The notes under the pieces are model-generated. The model saw only the letters and a list, made by a program, of their open reading frames with translations. It searched no databases and was not told the origin of the DNA. A DNA stretch of 64,000 nucleotides from the NCBI GenBank assembly GCA_025617745.1, contig CM046873.1, positions 28,967,410 through 29,031,409 of the forward strand. Reading direction: 5' to 3'. This document shows, piece after piece, positions 4,601 to 58,688 of the stretch. Position 1 is the stretch's first letter. Every line of letters starts with the position of its first letter. The DNA is from Heliocidaris erythrogramma (lineage: Eukaryota > Echinodermata > Echinoidea > Camarodonta > Echinometridae). A program made the translations under genes and the position numbers.

Positions 4601-7600
4601 TTTTCCTCAATCTTCTTTCTTGTTACCCAGATGTCTCGGCCATCATTCATTATCTATTTAATTGCCATTATAAAAAAAGGATGGTGGATGAACGTGCCAG
4701 AGACGTTGCCACGGTAACAAATTAATTAATCTTTGAGTAAACAACCTAAAGGCATAAAGTTAATATCTAAGAATATCTCTTCCAGCTATAAGTTAGGCTG
4801 CAATTAACATCTGAATTATCCCAGTTCATGGTTATGCTCTAAAATGACTGTTGCTATGGTAACGTCTGAATATTCAGAAAATTATGTATTTTGTAAAGAA
4901 ACAATCAAGTCGGGTAGAACTTCCGAGATCGATGGATAAGTTCTTTCCAGCAACCTTTGTCATTCAAGAGTTCAGCGATGTCTAGCGTCTCCCGGAGACC
5001 AGTGTCCTTAATTAATCGACATATGTCCTCCTATAGGTCTCCCTCTTCTTGCATCTCCATGAAGGGGTTTCCACAGGACCACGGGACCACTGAGTGTAGT
5101 GTAAGCTCTGGATGCCTTTGATTATGACCTGAAAGTTCAATCTCCTCTGGGTTACTTTTGTGCTGACCTTTGGAAGGATTCCGTACAGCTCCGAGTTCCT
5201 CAATCTCGTTGCGTATTGGTTGCCGCTCAGAGCCATCCTTTAACATTCTGGTGCTAGTGTAGCACCCATCACGGGGGTCTGATTTCCATACTGACCTCAG
5301 GCTGTGGCATGCTGCCCAGGCCTTCCTCACCCTATCTGTGTTCCTGATCTTTGCTCCCAAGTAAAGAAAGTCATCCACCAATACAGTTGGCTTCCGACCA
5401 GCACTCACGATTCCCTCTGGCTCCAAGATGTTCTCCACCAGGGGTGGTATTCTGAGATTTATTTTATCTTGATTTTAGTGAAAAGATTTTAATTGTCATA
5501 ACAAATTTTAAATTGCAACATTTCATTGGTGTTTGCGCAGATGAATTCCGCGTACGTAGCCACTTTTGCGCAGTCGTTAAGCAATGACGCGCCATAAGCA
5601 TACATTTTGTTGTAACAATTAAAATTATTTCACTAAAATCAAGATAAAATAAATCTCAGAATATCACCCCTGATACTTAAGTCTTGCTCTCATTTATCCG
5701 CAGTCCTACATTCATAAATATCTCATCCACCTCTCTCAGTAACTCCTCTGCCTCATTTACTGGGTCGTGGCACCCTCAATAATCCTCCTGACTGGTGGTG
5801 AATCTTCCCTCTCTAAAGCAATTGTGGCGGTCTCTGAGCTTCTTGGCTGGATTCGGCTCAGAATCATCCTGTTGAGGGTCTTTGCAGCAAGTGACGTCAG
5901 TGAGATGCTCCTGTAGTTGTTGGTGTCAGTGAGGTCACCTTTCATTGTTACTGGGACGGTGTTCCTTTTCCTCCATTGATCTGGGACAACACTCTTCTCC
6001 AGTGCCTGATTACAGAACTCCAGGCTGATATCGCTAAAATCACATCTCTTCATCACCTCCGGCGATACTCCGTCATCTCCATACCCCTTACTCTCCTTGA
6101 TCCCCCCCCCCCCCCTCTGGCTCTCTAAGGTCCGACAAATATCCATTTCCTTGAATAGCTGAATACGTAAAGGCTATATTATATTTTTCTTCTTACAGTT
6201 TCAAAATTTAACTGATCGATTACCATGGCAATGTCTCTGGAATGTTTGGATTTATCACTCACCACCAGTTTAACGGCAATCAGGGAAGATTATGATAGAG
6301 AGTCTGTTGGTAGATCCCATTATACGAAACTGTGTCACGGGTGGGAGTACACTTTCTACATATTAGCCCATACACTTTTATTAATGATTTCATAAGTCGA
6401 GCATACTTTCTTTATTGATCAACACATTGATGTGTTGTCATAGCAACTATTCTATCAGACATGACCGTTACCTTAAAATACAACTAAAATACATCTTCGT
6501 TGAAAATAATTGGAGAGTTGGAAATTTGTATTTTTTTTTAAATTTATTTACTACTTACTTTATAGACAATGTTTTTTGTGTAAGAGTTAAGATTAATTTT
6601 TCTGACAATGACAATGACATTTATTCTCATGTCACCCATAGAGAGGGTATTGGAGTATACAATAATATACATGTACAAATCATTCGTATTTCATAAAATA
6701 ATTTACAAAGCATTTAGAGTACAATGTTTAAAAATACAACAAAATTATTTTTGGATAATTACAGTTGAAATAATAAATAAGTGCATGAAAGCTTAAAATG
6801 TAATTAGAATGTATAAATATTCCAAAGAAGGCAAGTAATGGCATCAGCATATCGTTGGCTGTTATGCCACAATTAAATCTAAATCTCAGAATATTGTATT
6901 TCGAGCGCCTTTAGAAACGAAGCATAGTTTTCCTGCAAAATTTTACAAGGTTGGATCGGATTTCTGGTTTTTCACAATTAAAGAGCTGATTCATTTTGAG
7001 TGTATTTGGCCGCTCAGTGTAATATTTTTTTAAATACTTTTTTCTGAAAATATCAGTCTCAACCTGGTTGTTGCCATAGTAACGACCATAATGATATAAA
7101 TACATTGTTGTAAGACTTTGAATGACCAAGATTTTGATGGCAATCAAATTTGGAGCAAGAAACGGACACACGGAGACACTTGTTATGTTTTTACCTTGTT
7201 GCATCACAAATATATAGCATTTTCTAGAAATTCAGATATTACCATGGCAACGGCTAATTTGGAGCATAACCATGACCTTGGATAAGTCAGACTGCAAGGT
7301 AATGTGCAGTTTGAAAGAGATATTCTTATTTTCAAAATTACCCCATAAATTAATTTTTGGAAGTGCTTCCATATCATAATATTGTTCAGTATGTATCGTT
7401 CAATAACTGGACCAGTTTTGGTGCTTTAATTTAGACAAAAGTGCACAATTCAGCCAAATTTTGGAGCTATGCCCCCGTACTAATTTTTTGTTGGAAAAGC
7501 ATTATCAACCATGCTCGCGAAAGTTGAGACTTTAGAATTTCCCATTCCTGCACGTAGGACTGTATGCCCCCTCGATCCCCGACAGCGTTTCGAATGTTTG

Positions 7601-10600: not shown

Positions 10601-13600
10601 ATATAGTTTCTATGAATGATCCCTCCTGGTCAGCACACAGCTTATACTAGGGACAGGTTTACTCTCACTACTCAATAGAATCCTAAGAATATATCGCCTA
10701 ACAACTAATCTTACTTTACAGAGTTAGTAATATACTTACTCTACAAAAATGATACATAGTACAGCATAATACTGAAAAATAAAATATACTAATTAGTCAA
10801 ATCCTCTCAAGCAATATCATTTTGAATAAAATCCTAAATATATGCTCAACAAAGAAAACCGTTATTTCCGTCCCTACAGAAATTATCCAACATATAACAT
10901 TCCACCAGTTACGCACAGATTGTACAAATTAATACTGATAAAATGGCAATGTTCAATATAACAAACAATAATACATCTCCTCAACGAGATATAAGCGGAC
11001 GTTTCCGAAGCATGACTGGATTATATAAATCAATGGAACTATGCAAATTTCATAGGGGAAATATAACAAGTATCCATGCAAATCATGTTCAATAAAATAC
11101 TTCTAAACATTTGTCTCCTACGACAAATCATATCGAATCCAGCACAAATAGCAATTTCTAACGTAATTCCATCCTTATGACAAGAAATATGAAATACCTT
11201 TAAATCTACGAACACAATAAAATGAATATATAACTCAAGGAAAATACAAAGTTATTCTCGACATATATTCAAAATCATCAAGAAAAGATATTTTTACTTT
11301 CACAAATCACAATTAATTCAGATACAGTATATATTTGGCAATATATGAAATGGTGTAATAAAATCAAACTTACCCCTATTGGATGGAATTTGTCATGAAA
11401 AAGTCAAGGTTTGGTCGAGTTCCCTTCTCTATAGATGTGGTCATATTCCAATTTTGTATAATTAGATGCCTACATTGTACTTCGTTACATTACAAATACA
11501 TGGTGGAAGCATTGTGGTATATTGGTGAAGGCCTTTCACTCTCATACGAGAGCTCTTGGATCCTTGATCGGTGCTTACATCTATGGCAAGCCTAATGCCC
11601 AATAAGTCAGATAAACTCAGTTTTTCGCCGATAAACTGAGTTTTTCGCCGATAAACTGAGTTTTTCGAGCGATAAACTGAGTTTTTCGAGCGAAAAACTA
11701 AGTTTTTCGAGGGAAACTCTGCATATCAACTGATAAACTTAGTTTTTCACGATAAACTAAGTTTTTCACTCGAAAAACTTAGTTTATCACCGATAAACAG
11801 GGTTTTTCTCGATAAACAGAGTTTTTCATTTGATATGCAGAGTTTCTCTCGATAAACTCTGTTTATCACTTGAAAAACTCGGTTTTTCGGTGATAAACTA
11901 AGTTTATCGGCGAAAAACTCAGTTTTTCGGCGATAAACTAAGTTTTTCAATTGATAAGCAGAGTTTCTTGATAAACTAAGTTTATCACTTTGAAAAACCC
12001 TGTTTATCGAAGTGATAAACAGGGTTTTTCGAAAAACTATGTTTATCAAACGATAAACACAGTTTTTCATTCGAAAAACTATGTTTATCAAACGATAAAC
12101 ACGGTTTTTCGGAGATAAACTAAGTTTATCGGCGAAAAACTCTGTTTATCAATTGATAAACAAGGTTTTTCGAAAAACCCTGTTTATCAAACGATAAACA
12201 GGGTTTTTCGATATGCAGAGTTATTGTGAATTTACCGCGAGTGGGCGCTACAAAAGTACATAAAGAAGCTGGCCTGTGAGCATCGAACTCAAACATAGTC
12301 AGCAAAATGCCTTCTTGTGAAGCCATCAACTGTACCGATCGACTTCTTTCTTTCATTTAATATATCTTCTTCTCTTTCACAACAATGGCAGGAAAAGATA
12401 GAAGAAAAGTAAAAAAAAAAAAAAAAATACATAGGGAAAGAGAAGGGGATAGATCAAATGATAAACACCAAAAAATACATATGGAAAGGGGAGACGATGA
12501 CAGATGGAAGGAAAAACAAAGAAATCCATAAGGAAAGAGAAGAGAATATGGAATAAAAAACAAAGAAATACATCAAAAAAGGGGAGAGGAGGTAGATGAA
12601 AGGAAAAACAGAAAAATTCGTATGGAAAGAGATGATATATGGAAGGAAAAACAAAGAAATATATAAGGATACGGGAGGGGATAGTTGGATGGAAAAACAA
12701 AGAAATACATAAATAAAGGGGAGAGGATATAGAAGAGGAAAAACAAAGAAATATATAAGGAAAGGGAAAAGGATAGATGAAAGGAAGAAAAAAAATACAT
12801 TAAATTATATATCCTCTGTTCTTTCCTTATGTATTTCTTTGTTTCTCCTCCCATCTATCCTCCTCTCTTTCCTTATATATTTTTGTTTTTCCTTCCATCT
12901 GTCCTCTTCTCTTTCCTTATGTATTTCTTTGTTTTTTCTCCCATCTATCCTCTTCTCTTTCCTTATGGATTTCTTCGTTTTTCCTTCCATCTATCATCGT
13001 CTCCCCTTTCTTTATGTATTTCTTTGTTTTTCCTTCCATCTATCCTCTCCCTCTTCTTTATATTTCCTTGTTTTTCCTTCTATCTATTCTCTTCGCTTTC
13101 ATCATGTATTTCTTTGTTTTTCCTTCCATCCATGCTCTTCTCTATCATTATGTCTGTCTTTGTTTTTCTTTTCATCTTTTCTCTCCCCTTTCCCTATATA
13201 TTTCTTTGTTTTTCCTTCATTCTGTCCTCTTCTCTTTCCTTAAGGATTTCTTTGTTTTTCCTTCCATCTATCATCGTCTCCCCTTTCTTTATGTATTTTT
13301 TGTTTTTCCTCCCATCTATCCTCTTTCATTTTCCTAATGGATTTCTTTGTTTTTCCTTCCATCTATCCTCTTCTCTTTCATCATGTATTTCTTTGTTTTT
13401 CCTCCCATCTATCCTCTTTCATTTTCCTAATGGATTTCTTTGTTTTTCCTTCCATCTATCCTCTTCTCTTTCCTTATGGATTTCTTTGTTTTTCCTTCCA
13501 TCTATCCTCTCCCCCTTCTTTATATTTCCTTGTTTTTCCTTCTATCTATTCTCTTCGCTTTCATCATGTATTTCTTTGTTTTTCCTCCCATCTATTCTCT

Positions 13601-16600
13601 TCGCTTTCATCATGTATTTCTTTGTTTTTCCTCCCATCTATCCTCTTTCATTTTCCTAATGGATTTCTTTGTTTTTCCTTCCATCTATCCTCTTCTCTTT
13701 CCTTATGGATTTCTTTGTTTTTCCTTCCATCTATCCTCTCCCCCTTCTTTATATTTCCTTGTTTTTCCTTCTATCTATTCTCTTCGCTTTCATCATGTAT
13801 TTCTTTGTTTTTCCTCCCATCTATCCTCTTTCATTTTCCTAATGGATTTCTTTGTTTTTCCTTCCATCTATCCTCTTCTCTTTCCTTATGGATTTCTTTG
13901 TTTTTCCTTCCATCTATCCTCTCCCCCTTCTTTATATTTCCTTGTTTTTCCTTCTATCTATTCTCTTCGCTTTCATCATGTATTTCTTTGTTTTTCCTTC
14001 CATCCATGCTCTTCTCTATCATTATGTCTGTCTTTGTTTTTCTTTTCATCTTTTCTCTCCCCTTTCCCTATATATTTCTTTGTTTTTCCTTCATTCTGTC
14101 CTCTTCTCTTTCCTTAAGGATTTCTTTGTTTTTCCTTCCATCTATCATCGTCTCCCCTTTCTTTATGTATTTTTTGTTTTTCCTCCCATCTATCCTCTTT
14201 CATTTTCCTAATGGATTTCTTTGTTTTTCCTTCCATCTATCCTCTTCTCTTTCCTTATGGATTTCTTTGTTTTTCCTTCCATCTATCCTCTCCCCCTTCT
14301 TTATATTTCCTTGTTTTTCCTTCTATCTATTCTCTTCGCTTTCATCATGTATTTCTTTGTTTTTCCTTCCATCCATGCTCTTCTCTATCATTATGTCTGT
14401 CTTTGTTTTTCTTTTCATCTTTTCTCTCCCCTTTCCCTATATATTTCTTTGTTTTTCCTTCCATTTGTCATCGTCTCCCCTTTCCATATGTATTTTTTGG
14501 TGTTTATCATTTGATCTATCCCCTTCTCTTTCCCTATGTATTTTTTTTTTTTTTTTTTACTTTTCTTCTATCTTTTCCTGCCATTGTTGTGAAAGAGAAG
14601 AAGATATATTAAATGAAAGAAAGAAGTCGATCGGTACAGTTGATGGCTTCACAAGAAGGCATTTTGCTGACTATGTTTGAGTTCGATGCTCACAGGCCAG
14701 CTTCTTTATGTACTTTTGTAGCGCCCACTCGCGGTAAATTCACAATAACTCTGCATATCGAAAAACCCTGTTTATCGTTTGATAAACAGGGTTTTTCGAA
14801 AAACCTTGTTTATCAATTGATAAACAGAGTTTTTCGCCGATAAACTTAGTTTATCTCCGAAAAACCGTGTTTATCGTTTGATAAACATAGTTTTTCGAAT
14901 GAAAAACTGTGTTTATCGTTTGATAAACATAGTTTTTCGAAAAACCCTGTTTATCACTTCGATAAACAGGGTTTTTCAAAGTGATAAACTTAGTTTATCA
15001 AGAAACTCTGCTTATCAATTGAAAAACTTAGTTTATCGCCGAAAAACTGAGTTTATCACCGAAAAACCGAGTTTTTCAAGTGATAAACAGAGTTTATCGA
15101 GAGAAACTCTGCATATCAAATGAAAAACTCTGTTTATCGAGAAAAACCCTGTTTATCGGTGATAAACTAAGTTTTTCGAGTGAAAAACTTAGTTTATCGT
15201 GAAAAACTAAGTTTATCAGATGATATGCAGAGTTTCCCTCGAAAAACTTAGTTTTTCGCTCGAAAAACTCAGTTTATCGCTCGAAAAACTCAGTTTATCG
15301 GCGAAAAACTCAGTTTATCGGCGAAAAACTGAGTTTATCGGACTTATTGGGCATTAGGCTTGCCATATACATCCCTGGGCAAGGTGTTTTGCCCACATTT
15401 GTTTTGCTTGACCCAGATGTATGAAATGTGTACAGGCAATGATAGTTGCAGGGCAGTAGTAATATTACTGATGTGGTATCCTGGGTAAGTAAGATCGATT
15501 TATTATTATCTATTACATGTATTCTAAAACTCTGTTTCTTGGACATCGCATCCGTTCTAGTTCACGTACAAGGGAAATGATTGTGAAGGAAAAAGTGTGA
15601 TAAATTCATGACGAACTCGTGCACATTGAATTTTTTCCCTTCATAATCATACCTTGGACCCCGAATTACCTGAAAAAGGAGCATTTAAAGGAATAAAACA
15701 GTCAAATTGGTAAGTTGAGCATATTCGTTTAAGTATAGAGCCTATGCCTAATCTATTTAATTTATAAAATATTCCTAAAAATAGAAATATACAGATTTTT
15801 ACAACTACATGCCGACTGTTCGTCAGCTATCAGTGATGAGTTTGCACCGAGTGTATGGAGTGTTTCTGTCTCGACGGAGTAACAACAATAAAGACATAGT
15901 TGGTCCAGCAATCCTGACTTGCTTTAAATTGTATGTTTTCAGTGAGGGGTTTTTGTAAAGCGACGTAATTCTGCCATTGATATTTGTCTAGATCTCGGCA
16001 GATTTCTATCACAAGGAAATGCCCTCGAAGAAGGCACTGGTCTTCTTTCTCTTGGAACATGGAGCAAAGTACGACATGAGGGACCACCAAGGCATCCTGC
16101 CAGTTCACTATGCCAGGGATGAAGTGATCCGCCAGATGATACTTTCGAGGTGTGAAAATTACTATTTAAAGTCGACAGTCAAAAAGGGGGGGGGGGCAAT
16201 ATTCATATTGACCCATCCCCCCCCCCCCCCCAAAAAAAAAGGTTTTTAAATGATCCCAAATAAGCATGATGAGACAAGAGGCTAACAGCTACCAGTCTAT
16301 GTTACTAATATAAAAACATAAAAACATATAAAAAATATTTAAAAAAATTATTTATCTTACCTTTTCCGCGTATGGATACATGTAGTATTAGCTTTTATCT
16401 AGAAATCGAGAATACCATCAAAGTATTCATTTTTCAAGTTAATATGATGATCAGTTTTGATCCAAGTATAATGTTGATATTGATATTGTTCATGTGAAGC
16501 AGACTTCTAATTGACTGAATATAGCCCTAGTGACATTTGAATGATTTTGTTTCTCATAATGTTAGCTCACAAACGCGTGCTTTGATATTATTTCCAATAA

Positions 16601-17276: not shown

Positions 17277-20115
17277 AAAGTAAGATAAAGTTCACTCCGA
17301 GAATAAAGACATAGTAGATATCCGTAGGTTTGCTTCCACAAGCGCTTTCGTTTAATTCTTCAGGTGGAATGATTAACCTGTTAGTTACATGCGTTTATAT
17401 ATCGTACAAGTAGAAGTTACAAACATTTTACAAGTCTTTCAAATCTCCGTTGCTAAAGTTAAGAGATCTATTCAATAGACGGATAGTTGCTGGTAGATGA
17501 AAGCTAGAAGAATGAGTTGTGATAGCATGGAGGATGTTGAATAATTGGCCTGGTGAGCGGGGGAAGAAGGATTATGGCATTTGGAGTCAATGGAACAGTC
17601 GATTATTGTTTGGCACAGTACACAATAGAGTAGAGTGTTTACAATAGCTTAAACCGGGTATAGACTTCTTTGGTTATTCTGAGATAAAAGAGTATGTAGA
17701 CTTCGAAATTAAATAGTCTGACGCATTTCTTAAGTTAATATGATACATAAAGACCCTTGGTGTAAAATGCAGTCAATGAACGTGGTAAGGATTCTACAAC
17801 GATTGACTATTGAATGTATATACACATAATAGTACATGCAACATTATATAATATAATATACACTGTATACTATGTGGTAGTTAGAGTAAGAAACAGCAAT
17901 TCATATAGCGTTCAGTGAAGGTTTACATTTATTAATGAAATGTTCTTCTTTTAGGCAACGTTTAGTTTTGTCATCATCATTCATTTTATAAAAAGGTGTA
18001 ATTAAGAAATTGGGTTCTACGGAACGAGCACACCTTTCTATATGTTCACTCAATTTTAGTATCTATATTCTTTCTGTCTTATTTGTTGACGATGAACCCT
18101 TACTCTGTTACGAAGAACATCTCCTGTTTCACCAATATTTTGTTCTTTACATCCTTGGCACGTTATACAATAAATCAAGTTTTTTGTTTGACATGTAAAT
18201 GGAAATTTAATTAAAAACTCCGTGTTGTTTATTCCAATGTTGATTCTATTTGTCACATCCAAATGGGGGCATGCAGGTTTTGCATCTTTTGTCGCCGCAT
18301 CTTTTCACCCCACCTTTTGTATTGTTGTTTTGGGAAAATCTGGTTCTGGTGAATATTTGTTTCAGATTAAGGCTTTGTCGTTTGCTTGATATAACTTTTA
18401 CATTTTCAAATACTGCTTTCAGAGTTTCATCGGTCTTGATGAGAGGCAACGAATCATGAATAATTTGAAACATGTTTGGGTTATTTGGGTTGAATGTGTG
18501 GACAAATGGAACTATCTCCTGTTCATTTCTTTCTTTTTTAGACATCAACTCTTGCTTACTGAGTGCATTTGCCTTAGAAATACCGGTTATAATAATTTCC
18601 TTAGGGTAATGTCTAATCAAAAGCATATGCTTTAGTTCTTCCAACCGTTTCTTTTTAGTTTCTTCATCGGATACAATTGTACATATTCTCCTAGCTAAAT
18701 TATACGGGACATTATTTTTACACTGCTTAGGGTGGCAAGATTTAAAATGCAAATATTGGTGGGTGTCTGTGACTTTATAGAATATGTCTGTCTTTAACAA
18801 ATTATCTTCCTTTATTATTTTAATATCTAAGAAATTTATTGAGCTACAATTAACATTCCATTTAAAACCAATTGCTGGGTGTAATTCACTTAGTATCTTA
18901 TGTAAATCATTAATATCTCCAAATTCAGTTTTCCAAACAATAAAACAATCATCTAAGTATCTAAACCATTTTTTTTTCAAAATACCTTTTAACTTCAACA
19001 TTATAATGTGTTTCGACGCGCTCATAGAGTTTCTCCTCTAAGTATCCCATGAAGAGAGTAGCATAAGTCGGGGCCATTTTTGTTCCCATTGCAGTTCCAC
19101 GTTTCTATACATAATTATTTCCATCAAAATGGAAGGTGTTATTATTCAATATAAAATTGACCGCGTGTAATATGAATTGTGAAGGAAAACGAGAATCAAT
19201 TTCTTCCGGATATTTATTAATCCAATATTGTATACCTTTTAGACCTTCACTATGGGGTATGTTAGTGTACAAACTATTAACATCATATGTAACAAAGGTT
19301 GATTCAAATGGCAATTCCTCAGGTAAGTGTGTTAAAAAAATTAAAATCATCCCTAGCAAAACTTTTTACTTTATTGACTAGCGGTTTAAGCAAAATATCA
19401 ATAAAATTACTTAAACGGTGTGTTGGACATACCGGTCCAGCTATGATTGGGCGCATTTTTAATTTGTCATTGCAACATTATATAATGTTGCATGTACTAT
19501 TATGTGTATGTGTGTACTATTATGACTGTACTATTATGTGAATATACATTCAACAGTCAATCGTTGTAGAATCCTTACCACGTTCATTGACTGCATTTTA
19601 CACCAAGGGTCTTTATGTATCATATTAACTTAAGAAATGCGTCAGACTATTTAATTTCGAAGTCTACATACTCTTTTATCTCAGAATAACCAAAGAAGTC
19701 TATACCCGGTTTAAGCTATTGTAATCACTCTACTCTATTGTGTACTGTGCCAATCAATAATCTACTGCTCCAAATGCCATAATCCTTCTTCCCCCGCTCA
19801 CCAGGCCAATTATTCAACATCCTCCATGCTATCACAACTCATTCTTCTGGCTTTCATCTACCAGCAACTATCCGTCCATTGAATAGATCTTCTAACTTTA
19901 ACAACGGAGATTTGAAAGACTTGTAGAATGTTTGTAACTTCTACTTGTACTATATATAAACGCATGTAACTAACAATCCACCTGAAGAATTAAACGAAAG
20001 CGCTTGTGCAATCAAACCTACGGATATCTACTATGTCTTTATTCTCGGAGTGAACTTTATCTTACTTTAAATTATTTTTTCTATACGTTCTCCCATCTAC
20101 ATTTCTTTACAACTA

Positions 20116-23100: not shown

Positions 23101-26100
23101 TTCTATTTTGCAATATAGAAACTTAGTAACATCGTAGTGCTGTTTAACCCTTACTGTACTGGGCTATTTCAAGCTCCTCTCTAACCGATCGCCGCAAAAT
23201 TTTGCACGTACCTCGAGAATCGCGTAGAGAACACAAATCCAGTGTTATTTTCATGTAAATTTGAATATTTTCATTTAATAGTATGATTTAGGCAAATGAT
23301 ATGCATAAATGTACATTTTGATTGATAATCAAGAGAGGCCTTGGATATAAACCTTTAATGCAAAAAGTTTTTTTATGAACATTAAAACATTAAATTAAAA
23401 AAAAAATGAAAGTAATATCAATTGTCATGTATTCTATTTCTTTTTTTATATATTTGTTTTTCAACTTTAACTTTTTTTTTGTTTTGTTTAAGTCTGCTGT
23501 TTCAGAATGTTACCTGAACCAATATTCAGTTAGGATAAATGATAATTGCAGCTTAAAGAAGAAATTAAGCATGATAAAGGAGGAACATAAGGAAATGCAG
23601 TTTCCCATTGGTTTTGTTCACAAAACTCAGAAATTCTCCATCTTCGGGCTGACGTGAGGTCATAAAGGTCACGGGCACGGCAATGCATATGGCCAATTTT
23701 TGTAAACTTGCTGTCAAAAGCCTTCAAAAAAGGCGAAAAGTGGTTTGACGTGCTTCGGTTCGAAATGTGCGGAAAATTTCTCAAAAATGATTAGATTATT
23801 AAATTACTTTGGTAATTACGGGGGGATAGAGCATTCTTTAGAAGATAAATCTTGATTCACCATATATACAGTGCACACAAAGCAGCAAACCACCTTATAG
23901 ATTGTGTTTCTTGGACCTAAACTCATTTTCAACCGTCTGACGTTTTTACTCTTCCATGGACAATTCATCTGTTTGAGTGTTTTAGCATCTAGCTACTGGA
24001 CTTTGGTATGCCCTGCATTTAAAGAAATGATTAAAAGAATGGATAAAACATTTTTGTAACTAAATTATGTATACACTGTCTGTCCCACCAGTACTCTATA
24101 AGAGCGAGGTGATAAATTACCCAATGGATTCGTGAACCTAACAGCTGGCCAAAATATGTCTGGTTGTGTAAATATCGAAAATAGCAGTGCAATTCCCATA
24201 TTTATTGCTTTATACCACTGCAGACGATTTAAAGAGCCCAGTTTCCAATGAACCTTCTTTATTCATCGGGTAAGCTTTTGATTATTTCTATCTGTTTGAA
24301 TTCATTAAAAAATATGGTGTCCTCAATGTGAAGAATGATATTGAATCAGATAGACTTGTGATGTTTCTGTTTTGCATTTGAAATCAAAATATCATATATC
24401 AAATTGCACGTATATTTTGCTGAATATCAACCATTATCAGCTCCGTCTTATATCATCGAAATAATTCAAATTTAGAATTTGAAATGTTATACCTACGGAG
24501 CCCGGGAAGGGACATGGGGAAAATCTTTTTTTTTTTGGAGATATTATCTCGTTCCCTCGAGATAATAACTCGTTCCCTCGAGATAATAACTCGTTCCCTC
24601 GAGATATTATCTCGTTCCCTCGAGATAATATCTCGTTCCCTCGAGATAATAACTCGTTCCCTCGAGATAATATCTCGTTCCCTCGAGATATTATCTCGTT
24701 CCCTCGAGATAATATCTCGTTCCCTCGAGATATTATCTCGTTCCCTCGAGATATTATCTCGTTCCCTCGAGATAATATCTCGTTCCCTCGAGATATTATT
24801 CTGTTCAATTTACCCCCTAAATATGTTGTCCAAGCTCCAGAAGCTTCAAAATGCTGGGGCTCGCATTGTTTATCTGTCCACCAAGCGTACCCATATCTCC
24901 CGTTTTGCAAGTCGCTGCACTGGCTCCTGTCAAACATCGCATTATTTTCAAAATTTTGATGCTCATCTTTCACTGCGTTCACGGCTCTGCTCCCCAATAC
25001 AATACCTCTTTAATTGAAAATTACACCCCGTGAGATCTTCGCGCTCATCCACTTCCAGTTCTCTTGTAGTCCCTAAAGTCGCAAAGATCATTTGCCCACG
25101 CATGTACTAAATTATGGAATAGCTTTCCAGAAAGTGTATAACATCTGAATCTTTTAAAAATCATGTAAAACATTTCTGTTTAATTCTTAATTAATTTCTA
25201 CATACGCCTTGAACACTCCACAGAGTGGATTTGGCGCTATATAAGTTACATTTATTTTTATGTTGCCATTCTCTTTCTTAATTAATATATTCTTAATGGA
25301 TATTTTTCTTTTGTTCACTACCACTCGTGCACCTCTCTCTCTCCAGTAATTTGTTACGCTCAAACACACTTCCTTCTCCCAAAAAATGGCCACTTCATTA
25401 AAGAGTCTTGAAATAATGAAACAAAAATTCTAAAATACTCTTGTTTAATGTTGTCACTAAGTAGGATATTTTCTTTATTGGGGGACATGTAGCAGCATGT
25501 TATCTATAATATATTTCAGAACAGCCCCAAGGCTTAGGAAAGAACGGGAACTTAATGATTTACAGCAATAAATCGATGTATCTACCTATTTGCTAGTTTC
25601 CTAAACTATGCCGTCATTCGAGAAAAACTAAGTCTTAAACGCGCAGCCTCTGCCCGCGCGCGCGTACTCCCCGTCCACCAATCCAATCGCGCCACCGCCA
25701 TACTCTTCCTCTTCCTTTCTCGCCCGTCAGTGAAGTGACATCTATGAGCTAAGTCTTAGCCTAAAGTGCGAGATATTTACATCCAAAAGCGTTTTTGGCT
25801 GCTGTTCATAATAAAAATCCCGTTCACCAAATTCTAATACTCATTTTGGTGTATCGGACTTTTCATAAGTCAACCGCCTTCACGGTAAATTTAATCAAAA
25901 ACGATCGCCGTTTTCTCTTCCTCTGTTGAGCTTTACACAGACGGTGTACTAGTACACTGTGTCAGGGCTTCTTCCCCGTGTATTGTAGGTGGTTGATTCA
26001 ACGCGCTTAGACAAGCGGTTTATCACTACGATTGACTAGTCTCCGTATACAGGAGTTTTATTCCCACTCCGTATTGTGAGTTGGTTGTTGCCTTTTTAGT

Positions 26101-29100
26101 TCAATTGTTTGCTTGCTTGTTTTTTTTAATTTACAGCAATGTCGAAGTCTCCGTCTACGACTAGTGGTTCCCCTGTGGGAACTAGACTAGCTTTGGGAGG
26201 GTTGGCTGCGAGAGGTTCCTCTCGCACCACCGTTATCTTCCCTGGAGCTTCGACTGTAGGTAAGTTAGGGCCTACTTCGTGTACGGCTCGCCCCGTTATG
26301 AGTTCGCCGTCTATTCTGACGACCAACTCATGCGGGATAAACCGAGAGAGTGAGTCCTGGAACATGGCCAATACCTCTCTCGAAGATAGAGACTTGTATA
26401 ACGGTGAGAGTGAGTGCCTAACACGCCCAATACCTCTCACTGATAAAACTGTGGGTACTACCCCGACCCACGGTTCGTCTCGCTCGAGCAACACTTCTCG
26501 CTCACTAGCCATAGATGTGTTCGCTCAGGGGTCGGCTCCTTTTGGCTCTCCGCACGCTTCTAATCCAAGCAAGGCGTGTAAGAGCGGTAAGAGCAAAAAG
26601 AGTCGTGATCTTCCTAAGCTGCCCGCTACAGGGCTTACTACGGAAGCGACGCCCGTTTCTAAGGGAAAAGGGAGCATTAAGCTTGCTCCCCTGCCCAAGA
26701 AACGTAAGCGTCAGAGTACTGCCCAGCCAGTAGGCGGGGCGGACTCTCTCCCCTCGACGTCGACCGAGTCCTCGTCGACTGTGTCAGGGGAAGCCAAGAA
26801 GAAGCGAGTTACCCCCCAAGGGGTGACTGCTTCTGAGTCGAGCGTCTCCCATGAACTTCTTAGTTATCTGAAGATCATTGTGGAGAGGAGTGGTTGGTTA
26901 GACTCTGGGTCTGTACCCCCCACCACGCATGACTCCAACCCCTCCCCCCTTGGGGGAAGGGGGGATACCTGCACCCGCCCCGGCCCGGATCCGGTTCGGA
27001 TATCGGATCCGGTTCGGATACCGGATCCGGTTCGGATACCGGATCCGGTTCGAATACCGGATCCGGTTCGAATACCGGATCCGGTTCGAATACCGGATCC
27101 GGTTCGAATACCGGATCCGGTTCGAATACCGGATCCGGTTCGAATACCGGATCCGGTTCGAATATCGGATCCGGTTCCGGATATCGGTTTTACCGGTTAT
27201 CCGGCTAGGAACACTGTGTTTCCCAGTGGTCTGGGATCCGGTTCCTTTGCTCAGGTATCCGGCTCAGTGCTGTTGAATTCCAACACACAAGAGTCTTGCC
27301 GCCCCTCTCGGGGCATCTCCAGACCACGTTCAGCTTTTGATCGTCCGGTCGGGGCTACTCCCATTCCAGCGGCGCTTGGTGCCCCGCCTGGGGAGGAATC
27401 TTGGGACTGTCTAAACCGCCCTTCTTGGGATCAGGCTTCTCAGTCGGGATTCTCGGAGGATGATGCTACTTCTCAGGCTGAGGTTACGCCCCAGACCTTT
27501 CGGTCCCTGGCGGTAGATACTCAAGCCCTGTTGGAGAAATATCTTCCCGACACTTATACACCGAGTCGGGTGGATTCGGGACAACAGTCTCTCCTTTTTA
27601 AAGGTGAGCGTCCCTCTAGGGGCATCCCTCTCACGGAGGATTTCAAGCAAGTTTATAATGACTTCACTTCCCAACCTCCTTCCCTTCTTGGTAAGGCTCG
27701 CCCCTTGGCCAGGGACTTCTCCTTCTCCCAACAAGACACTCTCGATTTTTTTGCGAGGAAATCTTGTTCCAGGGACCTCATTCATGTAGGTGGTAGGCTT
27801 GGTGTCAACTTCTTAAGTGCAGGTTACGTCAAAGCGGAGAGGTTCCCGGCGATGATGGAGTCTCATACCAGAACCGGCCTAAGGCTGACTGCCTACTTGG
27901 GCACGCTCCTTTCCCTTCGGGCTAGGAGCCAGGAGCTCCAGATGTCCGATTCGGACATTCTTTTGTTGAACGAAGCTCTCTTGTCTTTGACAGGCTCCCT
28001 GTGGTCGGAGCTGTCTGTGTCGGCAGCTCTAGCCACCAATGCTAGGAGGAAGCTTGCGCTTTCCTCTCTTGGCATTGCGGATGCGGACATCCCGGCCCTT
28101 CTGGCCAGTGTTCCCCATTCCGGTCAACACCTCTTTGGAGGTAAGGTTTCGGACGTGATTCAGCTGGAAGTTGATTCACGCAAGCAGGCGGCAGAGCTTT
28201 TGAAACGCCTTAAGTCCTCGGCTCCTAAGTCGCAGGCTCAGGCTAGCTTTCCTCCTCCTAGACCTAGGCGCGGTGGCTCTTCTGGTTATCAGCCCACTCG
28301 CGCGCCGCAAGGTCAGCCCAGTACTCCACGCACGCTTGGAGCCGGGGCGGAGCCGTCTCCCCGAGGTAGGGGGAGGCGCCGAGGTCGCGGCCGGGGCCGT
28401 GGTTCGGCCCAGGCCTCGCGGCGAGTTTGATGGTGCGTCCCGAGCGTTGGGGGAGAGGGTTGGAGGCCGTCTTCAGTACTTTCTTCCCGCCTGGGAAGAA
28501 ATTACAGACGACAAATTCGTGCTCTCCATTGTGCGAGGAGGCTTCTGCATAAAGCTCGCAGAGCCCCTCCCGCACGGAGCCATCCGCCGCAACCCTCCTT
28601 CTCTATCGCCCCCTTTTCTAGAACACATCTCCATCGAGATTCAAGAACTGCTGGAAAAGGGAGCGATCGAACGGGTAAGAGACCACCCCCATCTGTGTCT
28701 CTCCCCTATCTTCATAATCCCCAAACGCTCGGGGAAGCTCAGAATGATCTTGAATATGAAGGTCATAAATACCTTCATACCAAGAGAGCGTTTCCGCATG
28801 GAAACCTTGGCCTCGATTCTTCCGGCGATCAGACCGTCGGATGTGGCCATTTCGGTAGACTTGAAAGATGCCAACTTTCACGTACCAATACACCCTTCTT
28901 CAAGGGACCTCCTAGGTTTCGCCTTTCAAGGCGAAACTTTCCGGTTCAAGGCCATGCCTTTCGGCCTGAAACCGGCTCCTCGAGTTTTTACTCGAGTAGT
29001 CTCTGCCCTAGCCGCTTTCCTCAGGTATCGCGGTCTGAGACTGTTCACTTACCTGGACGACTGGCTCCTGGTGGCGAGCTCTGTGTCCGTCCTTCAGTCT

Positions 29101-32029
29101 CACATGGACCTACTTCTCCGTACTACACAAGAAGTAGGATTCATAGTCAACTGGGACAAGTCGGAGTTGACTCCTACCCGCAGACCCATTTACCTGGGTG
29201 CGGAAATAGACATCGTGAACCAACTTGCCCGCCCAAGTCGGGAGAGAGTTCAGGCAATTGTCTTACTAGCTCGATCTCTTCGTCTCTTACGTCGAGTTCG
29301 GGCAGGCCGATGGCTCCAGTTCTTGGGCCACTTATCGAGCCTTGTGGATGTCCTCAAAGACTGTCGGCTTCATATGAGGCCCTTCCAACTTCATCTTCTG
29401 AAGTTTTTCAAGCCCAGTGTAGACTCGCTCAAGGTGTGGATTCCTCTCACCGAGGAAATCAAACGCCTGCTTATTCCCTGGTCGAAAGAGTCGTTCCTTC
29501 TTCAAGGCAAGTCTCTCCGCACGCCCCTTCCGTCTATCACCATCTCGACGGATGCTTCCCTACTGGGGTGGGGCGGCCATTGTTCGGACCAGGTGGTCTC
29601 GGGGGACTGGTCACACCTGTGCACCTTGCCCCACATCAATGTGTTGGAATTGATGGCAGTCTTCATGTCTCTCCGCCATTTCGAGAACATGATTGTAGGT
29701 CGCTCCGTCCTGATTTTGACGGACAACACCACTGTTGCTGCCTACATCAACAGACAGGGCGGGACTCGTTCCACTACCCTGAACGATCTCACCGCCAAAC
29801 TTTGGAAGTGGTGTCGGTCGCACCGAGTGATTCCGATCGCCTCCTATGTTCCCGGGCGGGACAATCTGATTGCAGATTTTCTGTCCCGGGGCATGTGTCT
29901 CCCCTCCGAGTGGTCACTGAATCAAGAGGTCTTCGACTACCTCAGTTCAGTCTGCGCCCCTCTGGAGATAGATCTGTTTGCGACAGCCCTCAATCATCGC
30001 CTCCCGAGATATTGCTCTCGAGTGCGAGATCCGGAAGCTTGGGCCCTCGATGCGTTCTCCCTTCAGTGGAAGAACTTCCGGGGTTACGCCTTTCCGCCGG
30101 TCTCCTTAGTTCCTCAGGTCCTGAGGAAGATTCAGGAGGATCAGGCGTGGGTCCTGCTCATAGCACCTTGCTGGCCGAGGAGACCTTGGTTTCCTCTTCT
30201 TCTGTCTCTGCTGGACGGTCGGCCTCTCTCCCTTCCCCGGAGAGCAGACCTATTAGCTCAGCCCCTATCGGGGATCCTCCACCATCGCCCGGCGGCTCTA
30301 CATTTGACCGCCTGGCCTCTATCGGGGAGGATGCGAGGACGGCAGGACTCTCCGAGAGAGCCTCCCAGTTCATAGTCCAGAGCAGAAGAGATTCTACCCG
30401 AGCTGTTTACAACTCGAGGTTAGAAGCCTTCCATGCTTGGTGTGGGGAGAAGGGATTTTCTTCCCGTTCTGCCCCAGTGGGTGCTATTGCGGATTTCCTT
30501 ATCGCCCTTTTCGATAAGGGCAGGTCCCTCTCTACCATCCGTGGTTACCGGTCTGCTATTGCAGCGATTCACCTTGGTTTTTCTGATGGTTCGGGAGTTT
30601 CTAACTCTCCCTTCTTGACTCATTTGCTGAGGTCGTTCTTTTTGAAACGGCCAGCAAATCGCCAACTGACTCCTGCGTGGAGCCTTCCCTTGGTTTTGGA
30701 CGCCTTGGCCAAACCGCCCTTTGAGCCGTTGTGCAAAGCGTCGTTACACCATCTGTCGATCAAGACTGCCTTTCTTGTCGCTATCGCTTCGGGCAGAGGA
30801 GAAGCACTATTCAGGCTCTCTCTACGGCGCCCGGGCATGTCAGATGGGAAAGGCAGGGTGTACGTCTTGTCCCCCGACCTTCGTTTATTGCGAAGAATCA
30901 GACGGATTCTTCTGGCTCAATCGAAGTGTTCTTGAGTCCTCTATCAGATTTCTCTTCTGTCAAGGAGGATAAGTCTTGGTGCCCTGTTCGGGCTCTCAAA
31001 TGGTACTTGGATAGGACTAAGGTTTTTCGTAAGGATGATCAGCTCTTTCTCATTTCTCGTCACCCTTATTCCCCAGCATCACGGGAGACTATCTCCCGGT
31101 GGATTGTCGAGGCTATCCAAGCTGCGGGTTCGGAGGCTCTCCTGTCTGAGAATCCTCCAAGAGCGCATGATACTAGGAGTGTTGCTACCTCCTGGGCGCT
31201 GTTTCAGGGTCTTCCTTTGGAAGACATTTTGAGGGCCGCCTTTTGGCGTTCCCCTACTTCCTTCACATCCTTCTATCTTAAGGATGTTCCTTCGGGTGAG
31301 GTTAGATTTGCAACCTCTGGGTTGAGAGCTGCTTCGTCGTCCCTTTCTGCCCCGCGTTAGTTCCTCCCGTCCTGGGACATGCCACCCGGGTTTTTATCCG
31401 TGCTATTCTAGCAAATAGGTAGATACATCGATTTATTGCTGTAAATCAAGAAAATTATATCTAATTTTGTTATTTACTAGATAAATCTATGTATCTACCT
31501 ATGTCCCTCCCTCCGGCCCCTCTCCTTGTCTGACATCATGTCCTAGATCTGTCTCTGACTGCTCGGAAGAGGAAGAGTATGGCGGTGGCGCGATTGGATT
31601 GGTGGACGGGGAGTACGCGCGCGCGGGCAGAGGCTGCGCGTTTAAGACTTAGTTTTTCTCGAATGACGGCATAGTTTAGGAAACTAGCAAATAGGTAGAT
31701 ACATAGATTTATCTAGTAAATAACAAAATTAGATATAATTTTCTTGTTTTAGTGCACAACAGATTGGAGAGTTGTCCCCCAATACATTGAGTTTACAATG
31801 ATAAAATTTGGGCTTGACAGGGGTTAGAACTTTTGAGTTTATCAATCAAAAGTGTCAAATGTTATTTTTATTACCTATACAATCGGAACCGAGTAAAATA
31901 TATCATAACTACTTATTTTAATATGGCGACGTCTATGTAATGCAGAGAGACCTCATTTATTTATATATATTTATACATATACATATATAGCGAGAGAGGT
32001 GTGGATGTGTGTTCCATCATTCTCTGTTC

Positions 32030-32060
<31 letters not shown>

Positions 32061-35000
32061 GCATTATTTGTAAGGAAATAACATATACAACAGCTTTGGC
32101 AAATCTCGTGGAAATAAATACAAGTGAAAGAAATTGCGAGAATAACGTTGCGTAGCTCAATCAAAGTTCCCCAGAGCTGTCCTCCCTTTTTGAAATTTTT
32201 TGCAAAGGCTGAAAAAATGTCTCCGCCGGGAATCGAACCCTGGTCGCTTTACACACGCGCAACAACAAAAACAAAAGTGAAAGGGTGGGTTTTGTCAGTT
32301 AAGGCGCGGATGTCAAATTTGCCAAAAATCGGGAAAAGGGGGATCTTTGTGGAGTTTGTCATTACGCGTTTATGGTATCTTTTCCCCAGAGCCTAGAATT
32401 GCATGGTTTAGGGGTATATTATAGGGGTTACACTTGTTTAAGGGGTTTAACCTTTCAAGAAAGCACGCGAAAATACTTGAATCGGGTGTAAACCTGTGGT
32501 CGCGCGTGTGTATATACAACAATAAAAGAAAGGCTGTTGGGGTTTTTGGGGGGTTAAATTTTACATAACAGAATACCAGGAAAATGTTCAATTTTATTTC
32601 CCAAACGGATATCCATTCGCTGCTTAAACAAGTGCCGTACTTGGAACCAATAAAGTCATTTAATTTCTTGACCCTTTCTTGAAATATGTACAATATGGAA
32701 CATTGGATTTGAAAACAATTTTAATGATAAAACATAGACAAGGTATGTTCACACCGTTTAGGTTTCGGACTAAATAAACCCAGGTGTTCCATAATACCAA
32801 TGCTTTTACTATAATATTTAGGCTAATGTTTCACTCTCAATGACCATGTAATTTTATCTCATTGCGTGTAACTTGCTCAGTCATTGAATTGTTTATTGTT
32901 TACGAGAAAACAACACGAGCAAAATGTGTTATACACATGTCTATCTAACACGAAAGTCTATCTAACATGAAAGAGTGGACCAATTAACATTTATGGTTAT
33001 TTTTGTGTCTCATAATAACATCACAATCTCTCTCCGGAGGTAGATGGATATACAGATCAACAGCTTGCTGGGCATCCGTTGCTATCTCCAGGGAACGAGA
33101 TGTTATCTCGAGGGAACGAGATAATATCTCGAGGGAACGAAATATTATCTCGAGGGAACGAGATTAATATCTCGAGGGAACGAGTTATTATCTCGAGGGT
33201 ACGAGATAATATCTCGAGGGAACGAGATAATATCTCGAGGGAACGAGATAATATCTCAAAAAAAAAGATTTTCCCCATGTCCCTTCCCGGGCTCCGTATA
33301 TACCAGATATCTTTCTCATGCTTTTATTATTTTTTTGTATCTTTTTGCCTCTAACGGAGATTCTTCTAGGATCAGGCCCCTTTTGACTCCATTTTACTCC
33401 ATTGGCTCGCTATTATTGGATAAGCAGTTTTCAGCAGCTTGTTTTCCATTTTTATATATCTAAAGAAAAAATTCTAGATGCATTTTGATATTCAGACAGC
33501 TAAATAATTACATAAATATAACATTTCTAATTTAACAGAGGAAACAAAGAAGTTTCTCATGCTGGTGACCAGTCTGATGCTGATACAAACACGATTGCTG
33601 AAGAACTCTCCCTAGAAGGGTACTATGACTTGGGAGTGGCTCTTGGTATCACCATGCAACAGCTGGATGCAATCGAGTACCAGAGGTTCAGAGACAGACA
33701 GCAGGCCATCAAAGACATGCTTGTGAGATGGAGGCAAAGACAGGGAACAAACCGGAACGCAAAGGACCAGCTTCTGTCACTTACTGAATCTACAGACACT
33801 ACAGTCGAACAAGTGGAGCTGTCAGGTTAGACCGTAGGATCACGCGCATGATTTCCTAGGGAGAGGAGTTGATAGTTCTTGCCCGAATTTAAACTTTGCA
33901 GCTTTTAGATTTTGCGAGCGAGCAAAGACTTTGACATATTTCCTTCAGTGTAAATGAATTTCTGTCATAAAGATGTTTATACCACCTTGGTCCCGAAGAC
34001 AAGGTTCTTCTAACATTGTTAATTTCAAGAGAAATTGTGGGCTGCATTCCCCACCAACCGAAAGAGAGAGATTTATGATAATGATAATGACTTGAACGTG
34101 AACTAAAAGGACAGAATTAAGTAAGGGGTAATTTAACGCTGACTTAAAATATTATGCGTAATGTATACAACGAGACCAGGAAATTCTTTACCAGACGAGC
34201 TCTTGAATGAATATAGATTAACTTAAAATGCATTTCGATCACCACTTACACATTATAAGAAAATTCATTAAGTGAGTAGGCCTATATAGGACGAGATCCA
34301 ATTCATCAATTGTTATAATCTTATTCTAAATACACTTTTCTCGTTTCACTGCATCATTGTCCATTTGCCTGCCGTTGATAAGACATGTCTACGTTGAGGT
34401 AAGATTAATTCCATTTTCTACAATATTAATCAAAATTGCATATTTATCATCATTCAAATGGGAAAATTTAAAAAGTGGCAAAGGCAGAGTAGGTACAGAT
34501 GGGGACGAGAATATAAGAAGATATAAGAGAAATAGAAAAAGGGCGACATGAATTGAGGAAATAGAAAGATACATTATGGGGCGGCTGTTGAGATTCTTGG
34601 AGTAGGCCTATAATAGTAGCAAGGTGATCACAATGCTGATAACAACAATGATATAAATAAATAATTACATGAATTATTTTATTCAGAGAAAATTTCCATT
34701 TGATAAGTGACCAAAATGATTCCTTCAATATTATGAAACCTGCACAACGGGTTTCATAACATGGACGGAACAAACTGTATGAAGAGTATGAAGTGTTTTT
34801 ACGACCCCAAACTCCCCGAGTAGACCTTCTCTGTATCAGGGTTTCAAGGTTTCTTTTATTTTCCACATGATTCCTTTCAATGTTTTACATATATAAAAAT
34901 TGGTATAATATCAAACAAGTTTACGATAAGAAATGTTTACATAAATGGAAAAAATTTAAGTACAGTAATTACATATAATAAACAATATTATACTATCATA

Positions 35001-58320: not shown

Positions 58321-58688
58321 TGATGATCAGACAGAATTCAGTCGTTACACTGAACAGGACTAAAACGACAAATTCAATTTAATCTGTCAACATTTCGATA
58401 CTGTTTCATTGCATAAACCTGAGAAGATGAATTAAAAAGACTACGAGGGATTTTTAATACAAACATCTACTTCAGAGGCGTTATGTAAAGACCTAATATC
58501 ATTGCAAGGGAAATGCTACATGTCATTGTTAGAATCATTATACAACGAATGTCCATTTCCGTCGTATTTGGGAATGGAATATGGAATAAACAGGATCGTA
58601 TTAACGTATATGTAAGGGAATAGTTCAGTACGAATGTGCCAAATTGGGGTAAATATTAAGAAGAATATCGCAAAATTGTTCAATTAAT

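Follow-up and report, generated by a model that had tools for sequence, protein, structure and literature searches.

The foldback transposon described here is probably a non-autonomous IS3EU element. Its arms are probably an array of transposase-binding sites that selection for transposition preserves; the evidence includes the order, phase and pattern of change of the short modules that make up the arms. The element lies in a 64,000-nucleotide stretch of Heliocidaris erythrogramma DNA (the window), in which an ankyrin-repeat frame and the repeats likewise suggest a sea-urchin host. The purpose of long repetitive foldback arms has so far been unsettled, and the array has the pattern that would be expected of protein-binding sites needed for jumping. 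In the sections of the Galileo study drawn on here, the role of repeats in foldback arms is called uncertain, and the repeats of Foldback and Phantom are said to be untested as binding sites (PMC3688188). The copies in this genome provide a letter-by-letter map in which the outer letters are frozen, the W positions are mostly A or T, the centre is free and the phase is kept. This map predicts the contacts of a dimeric DNA-binding protein. A young, abundant family and a second such family in one genome make a direct test of arm function possible.

The element is 3,786 bp long and extends from 11582 to 15367, correcting the bounds of 11611-15340 given by an earlier, sequence-only reading of this DNA. 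It has 27-bp inverted ends (TATGGC...GCCATA) and sits between two exact copies of the 6-mer TACATC, a direct repeat immediately outside the ends (11576-11581 and 15368-15373, no strand assigned). The left terminal repeat, TATGGCAAGCCTAATGCCCAATAAGTC, occupies 11582-11608 on the + strand, with its inverted copy at 15341-15367 on the - strand. Next come the module arrays, at 11610-12226 (+) and, from the pattern search and arm comparison, 14760-15339 (-). They are followed inward by a unique domain at 12221-12410 (+), which provides 190 columns of the arm alignment as an internal yardstick of divergence and has its inverted copy at 14559-14748 (-). The middle consists of a diverged minisatellite of the 46-bp type on the left (12415-12800, +; TRF and inverted repeats I3-I5), inverted relative to an expanded 46-bp minisatellite of ~38 units on the right (12810-14553, -; TRF). 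Two long blocks of the arms pair with 98-99% complementarity, and one 20-bp module of the left arm is missing from the right. Long inverted repeats with short internal repeats, and little or no coding capacity (frames judged by eye), place the element in the foldback class.

The arms are written in a modular 17-bp grammar. A search of the window for GAWAAACNNNGTTTWTC with at most one mismatch gave 53 matches, all exact and all within the arms, whereas 100 dinucleotide shuffles averaged 0.15 matches and never exceeded 2. The left arm, with spacers of 0-5 bp, has 27 exact 17-bp modules and three variants of the GATATGCAGAGTTTCTC type (at 11711, 11832 and 11953), and the right arm has 26 and three. 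With a partial variant at the inner edge of each arm (12210 on the left), the totals are 31 and 30, close to the "about 32" counted previously. Because one arm is a copy of the other, the number of independent modules is ~27-30 rather than ~60. The 27 modules use 13 distinct central triplets, whereas 20,000 sets drawn uniformly average 22 and never fall below 15. Twenty modules have an asymmetric W pair, and when these are oriented by it every triplet reads W-N-R; the first and third triplet positions covary (p = 0.0007 by permutation). The mean spacing of the modules is 20.1 bp and their centres are phased near 10 bp. Phase coherence is 0.85 for the 30 module centres, a value reached by 0 of 2,000 random spacings and 0 of 2,000 order shuffles, and is also 0.85 for the 59 half-sites, at 10.05 bp.

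The 27-bp terminal repeat occurs at 209 places in the genome with at most three mismatches (0 for a reversed-pattern control), the family has about a hundred copies, and the module-pair pattern has 9,906 matches. The family is recently active and its copies are very young. Counting the window's own copy with 38 fetched ones, 39 have both ends, and an exact 6-bp duplication flanks 33 of these. The exceptions are L033, L040, L052, L054, L056 and L058, the last matching at 5/6 letters; L071 and L072 also have the exact duplication, making 35 sites in all. The pattern used to search for ends resembling those of this family minus the initial G of module 1 found 0 in the genome.

Which letters change between copies? 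In 36 copies, with one arm taken from each, the polymorphic columns are 6/324 in the flanks, 5/54 at W, 14/102 in the spacers, 12/27 at the central base and 115/190 in the inner domain. In seven older arms, from five copies, 9/324 flank columns have changed, compared with 13/27 for the central base (p = 4.4e-11) and 53/190 for the inner domain (p = 5.7e-17), although these events are not independent because the five source copies share ancestry. Against a binding array, the spacers of these arms (8/102 changed) have also diverged less than the inner domain, and their difference from the flanks is significant only at p = 0.037. The array as a whole is thus more alike than the inner domain, which may be a harsh yardstick; the fairest contrast is flank against centre inside modules. 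In the young set, the contrast between flank (3/324) and inner domain (12/190; p = 0.0007) is smaller because the copies are very young, and W is no different (p = 0.46). Overall, module flanks change ~ten-fold less often than the neighbouring inner domain, and 64 of the 71 changes seen at W exchange A and T (18 arms pooled, poorly aligned ones included). The sequence-only reading had proposed a possible protein-binding array with fixed flanks and a free central triplet. The pattern of change across copies argues well for such a candidate array, and the flanks are indeed nearly fixed. The free triplet is rejected by the 13 distinct triplets against a mean of 22 and by the column counts in the seven older arms, because of which one base, the middle one, is free.

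How might such an array work? The 17-bp module, with a pyrimidine before it and a purine after it, would be a site of two-fold symmetry to which a protein dimer binds. The likeliest binder is an IS3EU transposase, acting in trans through its DNA-binding part. Contacts would be made with the twelve letters of the flanks, the two W positions would accept A or T, and the central base would be an uncontacted spacer. About 30 in-phase sites lying edge to edge at each end could bring many protein units onto one DNA face, and the loaded units may in turn improve end recognition and help the ends to pair. A copy whose sites are damaged would then leave fewer offspring, freezing the flanks, and whole-module losses of ~20 bp (two turns) would preserve contiguity and phase. 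Since whole-module loss is common, any one module is dispensable. One would then expect substitutions to be tolerated as well, unless contiguity is important or deletions simply occur far more often, and this counts against a binding array.

The window also contains a second IS3EU-type foldback, at 24494-33298 (no strand assigned), with ends TACGGAGCCCGGGAAGGGACATGGGG. It was found by a scan for inverted TAYGG..CCRTA ends (first 14 bp, at most three mismatches, identical outer 6-mer); 59 decoy offsets gave 0. The identical 6-mers outside its ends, TATACC, are at 24488-24493 and 33299-33304 (no strand assigned). Its left array (24538-24799, +) has 12 units of GAGATAWTAWCTCGTTCCCTC and its right array (33083-33257, -) has ~8 units, of which 7 were matched. 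This 21-bp palindromic module is the second foldback's own, unrelated to the 17-bp module, and has the same layout. That another family with such ends, in this very window, carries a different palindromic module laid out in the same way speaks for a binding array. Autonomous IS3EU members encode an integrase-like DDE transposase related to IS3/IS481. Integrase-core matches to PF24764 (rva_4), a profile that we take to be the IS3EU core, lie at most 3 kb from second-family ends, on the inner side, at four places; second-family copies of this kind are at C4:711718, C5:9278007 and C2:52905271-52914441. Of 273 candidates for the profile, 150 were scored and 116 matched, and 5 pairs were seen among these matches and the 100 ends listed, against 0.065 expected and 0 in each of four shifts. 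The one fetched second-family copy (L073) has no transposase-like frame, judged by eye. A tentative generalisation is that several IS3EU families here use a distinct end type: a short terminal repeat followed by tens of palindromic sites that adjoin one another in helical phase on curved DNA, with a different module in each family. Selection would act on contiguity and phase rather than number, and the transposase, or a partner, might form a cooperative filament along the arm, which would bring the ends together and confine each transposase to elements of its own family.

A transposase gene with the 27-bp ends, which the sequence-only reading had suggested seeking, was not found near the 100 exact and 39 T-variant ends listed, of 209: the exact ends have 0 rva_4 matches within 10 kb, and the T-variant ends have none within that distance by eye, among the matches listed. 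Eleven rva_4 matches in frames of 417-421 aa, for example around C1:39004157, have near-equal scores and are perhaps a young autonomous family. For the IS481 profile (NF033577), 68 of 3,877 candidates were scored, and the 44 of these 68 that lie in frames of at least 900 aa are taken for retrotransposon polyproteins. No autonomous copy was recognised among 41 copies of the 11582-15367 family: in each, the three longest frames between stops (150 aa or more) look by eye like minisatellite frames or flank fragments, and so do the frames of 70 aa or more in the middles of five of these copies. A search of a phage collection gave no match.

The lack of an autonomous partner near the 100 exact ends listed would also fit modules that bind a host protein, such as a transcription, chromatin or silencing factor exploited by the element, rather than a transposase. 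The array is, moreover, far longer than the three sites per terminal repeat reported for Galileo. This reading is nevertheless unlikely: two families with alike ends carry different modules, as family-specific transposases would predict and one host factor would not.

It is less probable still that the arms are simply intrinsically curved DNA, with A-tracts in phase, in which curvature is kept rather than a protein-read sequence. A wedge model with provisional parameters gives the arm a contour/end ratio of 1.92, compared with 1.10 for 60 shuffles, 1.09 for other window DNA and 2.77 for a phased A-tract control. When the half-site is permuted and the spacing kept, 1.7% of 300 permutations reach the arm's value, and the W changes, being mostly A<->T, also suit curvature. 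However, modules with random 0-10 bp spacers still reach 1.53, so phase explains only part of the curvature. The second family's array is unexceptional, since 13.5% of 400 permuted units reach its value, and the fixed G, C and TC letters are not required by curvature alone. Thus, the random-spacer and permuted-unit results weaken curvature as the sole explanation.

Neutral tandem turnover or gene conversion, which would keep the modules alike without function, is very improbable. It is in keeping with arms that differ by whole modules of ~20 bp (one arm, L061_R, has 44) and with spacers that are also well kept in older arms. But letters 2 to 7 bp apart should then fare alike, and there is a strong difference between flank and centre. 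Across aligned copies, the triplets and the order of the modules are specific to the slot, which contradicts simple satellite turnover. Correction through a hairpin is unlikely because 20/27 modules retain a mismatched W pair.

The sequence-only reading had left the foldback unnamed. From its ends and target-site duplication, assigned by sequence, the element is best read as IS3EU. Its ends (TATGG..CCATA) and those of the second family (TACGG..CCGTA) both fit TA..TA and TAYGG..CCRTA. In the portions of the published accounts used here, rust-fungus IS3EU elements have a 6-bp duplication and TAYGG..CCRTA ends, fungal families have terminal repeats longer than 30 bp (PMC12730594), and complete families have TA..TA termini and usually a 6-bp duplication (PMC10045372). 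The likeness to the Repbase superfamily IS3EU / GingerRoot thus covers the terminal letters, the 6-bp duplication (exact in 33/39 two-ended copies, as above) and may extend, for the second family, to the rva_4 matches near the ends; the differences are that neither a foldback structure nor module arrays of 600 bp are mentioned in those portions, and that the terminal repeats of fungal families exceed 30 bp. Membership of another superfamily with 6-bp duplications, IS3EU-like only at the ends, would be allowed by an assignment made from ends and duplication rather than from a transposase of the 11582-15367 family, but it is highly unlikely given that TATGG..CCATA with a 6-bp duplication fits the published IS3EU descriptions and that the second family has integrase-core matches beside its ends. 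Among the literature matches listed, there was no paper on IS3EU foldbacks or on the 17-bp module.

How does the element compare with other foldbacks? The P superfamily, to which Galileo belongs, has 7-8 bp duplications and a THAP-type transposase, and Mutator-type foldbacks have 8-10 bp duplications; the 6 bp found here agree with neither. The TU elements are sea-urchin foldbacks that reportedly have constant arms, variable middles, 15-bp subrepeats and 8-bp duplications. Variable middles are shared, since middles differ here in L031, L034, L038, L064 and L065, whereas 17-bp modules at 20.1 bp and a 6-bp duplication set this element apart. The text consulted for Tetris, a Drosophila virilis foldback, which also cites the TU elements of Strongylocentrotus (Liebermann 1983), describes tandem repeats in the terminal repeats, as here, but these are ~220 bp long and the duplications are 8-10 bp (PMC4079207). 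Galileo is a Drosophila foldback with long terminal repeats whose internal repeats hold extra transposase (THAP) sites, according to the footprint and EMSA results in the sections drawn on (PMC3688188). Galileo-G has three THAP sites per terminal repeat, for a P-superfamily transposase (PMC3688188), whereas the element described here has ~30 predicted sites edge to edge.

The 27-bp terminal repeat TATGGCAAGCCTAATGCCCAATAAGTC lies outside both module arrays, and the 6-bp direct repeat TACATC lies outside the terminal repeats, so the foldback element spans 11582-15367. With one mismatch allowed, a search of the window returned 53 matches to the 17-mer GAWAAACNNNGTTTWTC, all exact and confined to 11610-12209 and 14760-15339, against a mean of 0.15 in shuffled sequence. 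Each arm is close to an exact inverted copy of the other, with 98-99% complementarity over two long aligned blocks. The right arm has one module fewer than the left, and each arm carries three variant modules of the GATATGCAGAGTTTCTC type at corresponding places. Inward of the arrays there is a unique domain of ~190 bp, followed by a 46-bp-type minisatellite that has its own inversion around 12,805.

How free is the module's centre? The central triplet had been read as free, and this does not hold. The 27 exact left-arm modules contain 13 triplets where 22 are expected, and none of 20,000 uniform draws gave so few; triplet letters 1 and 3 covary (p = 0.0007). Twenty of these modules are asymmetric at the W (A/T) position, 14 as T/T and six as A/A; once oriented, their triplet is invariably W-N-R. 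The W letters are associated with the outer triplet letters (p 0.0005 to 0.018), while among left-arm modules association of the middle letter is not clear (p 0.07 to 0.24). C or T precedes the module in 25 of 27 cases, and G or A comes after it in 26 of 27. Given the limited triplets, the W-N-R rule, the covariation and these outer letters, the module is a near-palindrome, Y-GAWAAAC-N3-GTTTWTC-R, in which one letter is free rather than three.

In the 1.06-Gb genome, where the window occupies G000:C21:28967410-29031409, a module with a second half-site no more than 6 bp on has 9,906 matches (5,007 forward, 4,899 reverse), and the reversed pattern has none. The 27-bp end has 209 matches at up to three mismatches (reversed-pattern control, 0), and the 100 among the matches listed are all exact. 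We fetched 40 places, which together take in roughly 73 of the 100 ends listed (31 pairs and nine unpaired forward ends), a sample biased toward intact termini but selected independently of the modules. Including the window copy there are 41 copies; 39 have both ends, and 33 of these have an exact 6-bp duplication. Target sites (these 33 plus those of copies L071 and L072) show a palindromic preference around R-C-G-Y, with C at duplication position 3 and G at position 4 in 48 of 70 each, both strands counted. The family is mobile and young, with IS3EU-type ends. Published descriptions give TA..TA termini and usually a 6-bp target-site duplication (TSD) for complete IS3EU families (PMC10045372), and TAYGG..CCRTA ends with a 6-bp TSD for those of rust fungi (PMC12730594); the ends and duplication agree with these descriptions, and we assign the family to IS3EU with high confidence.

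Individual copies vary. In L048, at 4773-4831, two ends stand back to back, separated by nothing but the 6-bp duplication CCCTCG, as though one element had inserted at the other's edge. The older copies L063, L064, L066 and L069 have unlike ends, left GCCTAATG and right GCTTAATG; T-variant ends number 39 in the genome. L031, L034, L038, L064 and L065 have different middles with arms and ends of the same kind, like other modular foldbacks, and some middle sequence is common to copies (~98% between L031 and L038). The flanks of L056 are mutually reverse complementary (CGTACGTACGGG and CCCGTACGTACG) without a duplication.

The modules are under base-specific constraint, and this constraint is very probably functional. 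We aligned the 69 of 80 arms in which the inner motif is present, leaving out the other 11. In 36 arms, one per element, polymorphic columns number 6/324 in the flank (the 12 outer letters of each module), 5/54 at W, 12/27 at the central base, 3/27 and 1/27 at the outer triplet letters, 14/102 in spacers, 2/51 in variant modules, 1/27 in the terminal repeat and 115/190 in the inner domain. In the young group (31 elements, inner identity at least 95.5%), the flank (3/324) varies less than the inner domain (12/190, p = 0.0007), the spacers (10/102, p = 6e-5) and the centre (5/27, p = 9e-5); W (1/54) is not different from it (p = 0.46). The older set comprises seven arms of five copies (L063_R, L064_R, L066_L, L066_R, L069_L, L069_R and L071_R), chosen for an alignable inner domain; of their 189 module copies, the 27 that contain gaps are excluded. 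By position, the centre letter changes most (31.5%), then W (6-10%) and the outer triplet letters (~4%), and the flanks least: 0-1.2% at eleven of twelve letters, with 4.3% at position 16 from a single shared change. Changed columns number 9/324 in the flank, 6/54 at W, 13/27 at the centre, 8/102 in spacers, 5/51 in variant modules and 53/190 in the inner domain. Since the spacers too are better kept than the inner domain, the latter may be a harsh yardstick; the flank-centre contrast inside modules is independent of it. Poorly inner-aligned arms, tallied without modules below 11/17 identities, have flank rates of 0-6% and inflated rates elsewhere. In a pooled tally of 18 arms that includes them, 64 of 71 W changes are A<->T.

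What else could shape the arms? The main puzzle is that single modules can be lost, yet flank letters are almost unchanging. Whole modules come and go: arms that contain the inner motif range from 477 to 742 bp, mostly in steps of ~20 bp (two helix turns), and L061_R, the largest seen, reaches 1,068 bp with 44 exact modules. Damage to a module may do more harm than its absence, if contiguity matters; alternatively, such deletions may simply be far commoner than substitutions. The 30 left-arm module centres have a phase coherence of 0.85 at the best-fitting period within 9.5-11.5 bp; controls fitted in the same way average 0.49 (random 17-22 bp spacings) and 0.62 (observed spacings, order shuffled), and 0 of 2,000 of either kind reached 0.85. 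The 59 half-sites give 0.85 at a best-fit 10.05 bp. Strong arm curvature is predicted by a wedge model (1.92, with shuffles at 1.10), but randomising the spacers between modules still gives 1.53 and the array of family 2, the window's second IS3EU-type foldback, is not predicted to be exceptional, so curvature is a possible contributor only. Neutral turnover or homogenisation would make modules alike, but it does not yield differences between letters a few bases apart, and hairpin-based correction would restore symmetry, yet the mismatched W pair persists in 20 of 27 modules. Aligned copies keep module order and, apart from a few cases, carry one and the same triplet in a given slot; together with the flank-centre contrast, this upholds the view that satellite turnover is insufficient.

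We suggest instead that each module would be read by a dimeric protein, that this reader may be the transposase, and that the arm would work as a loading array. The transposase is a reasonably likely binder of the modules. The nearest demonstrated parallel is Galileo, in which extra THAP sites are located within the long TIR; the authors of that study propose that specificity comes from having multiple sites (PMC3688188).

No transposase was recognised in the copies of this family that were read, and the gene with its 27-bp ends that the note proposed to look for did not appear: no match to rva_4 (PF24764, an integrase-core profile) lies within 10 kb of the 100 exact ends among the matches listed. 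A window scan for TAYGG..CCRTA inverted ends with identical 6-mers outside returned exactly two elements, 11582-15367 and family 2 at 24494-33298, and zero decoys. Family 2 has ends TACGGAGCCCGGGAAGGGACATGGGG, TSD TATACC and arrays of 21-bp palindromic units GAGATAWTAWCTCGTTCCCTC, differing from the 17-bp module. Among 58 units of two copies, minor letters stay at or below 5% at 19 nearly fixed positions; the other two positions hold A or T (minor 43% and 35%). Its end occurs at 164 genome places at up to three mismatches. Near the 100 of these listed, five rva_4 matches lie within 3 kb on the inner side, at four places, against 0.065 expected pairs, and each of four shifts gave 0. Of the four ends concerned, two have 1 or 2 mismatches. 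In the fetched family-2 copy L073, with TSD GTTTGG read from its flanks, a transposase-like frame was not seen. At G000:C1:39004157 and ten other places there are open frames of 417-421 aa, eleven in all, whose rva_4 scores are nearly equal; they are perhaps a young autonomous transposon family.

Other features share the window. Inside 24494-33298 is a GC-rich element, presumably DIRS-like, with a reverse transcriptase, a weak match to a tyrosine recombinase that falls below Pfam's cut-off, and 148-bp inverted repeats at 25568-25715 and 31565-31712. A 263-aa frame with a YLDD motif at 18246-19037 (minus strand), which we take to be possibly a Penelope-like reverse transcriptase, has zero Pfam matches at E 0.001. 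At 58653-61106, an 817-aa open frame with ankyrin-type repeats, recognised by eye, lies within a 99-bp tandem array.
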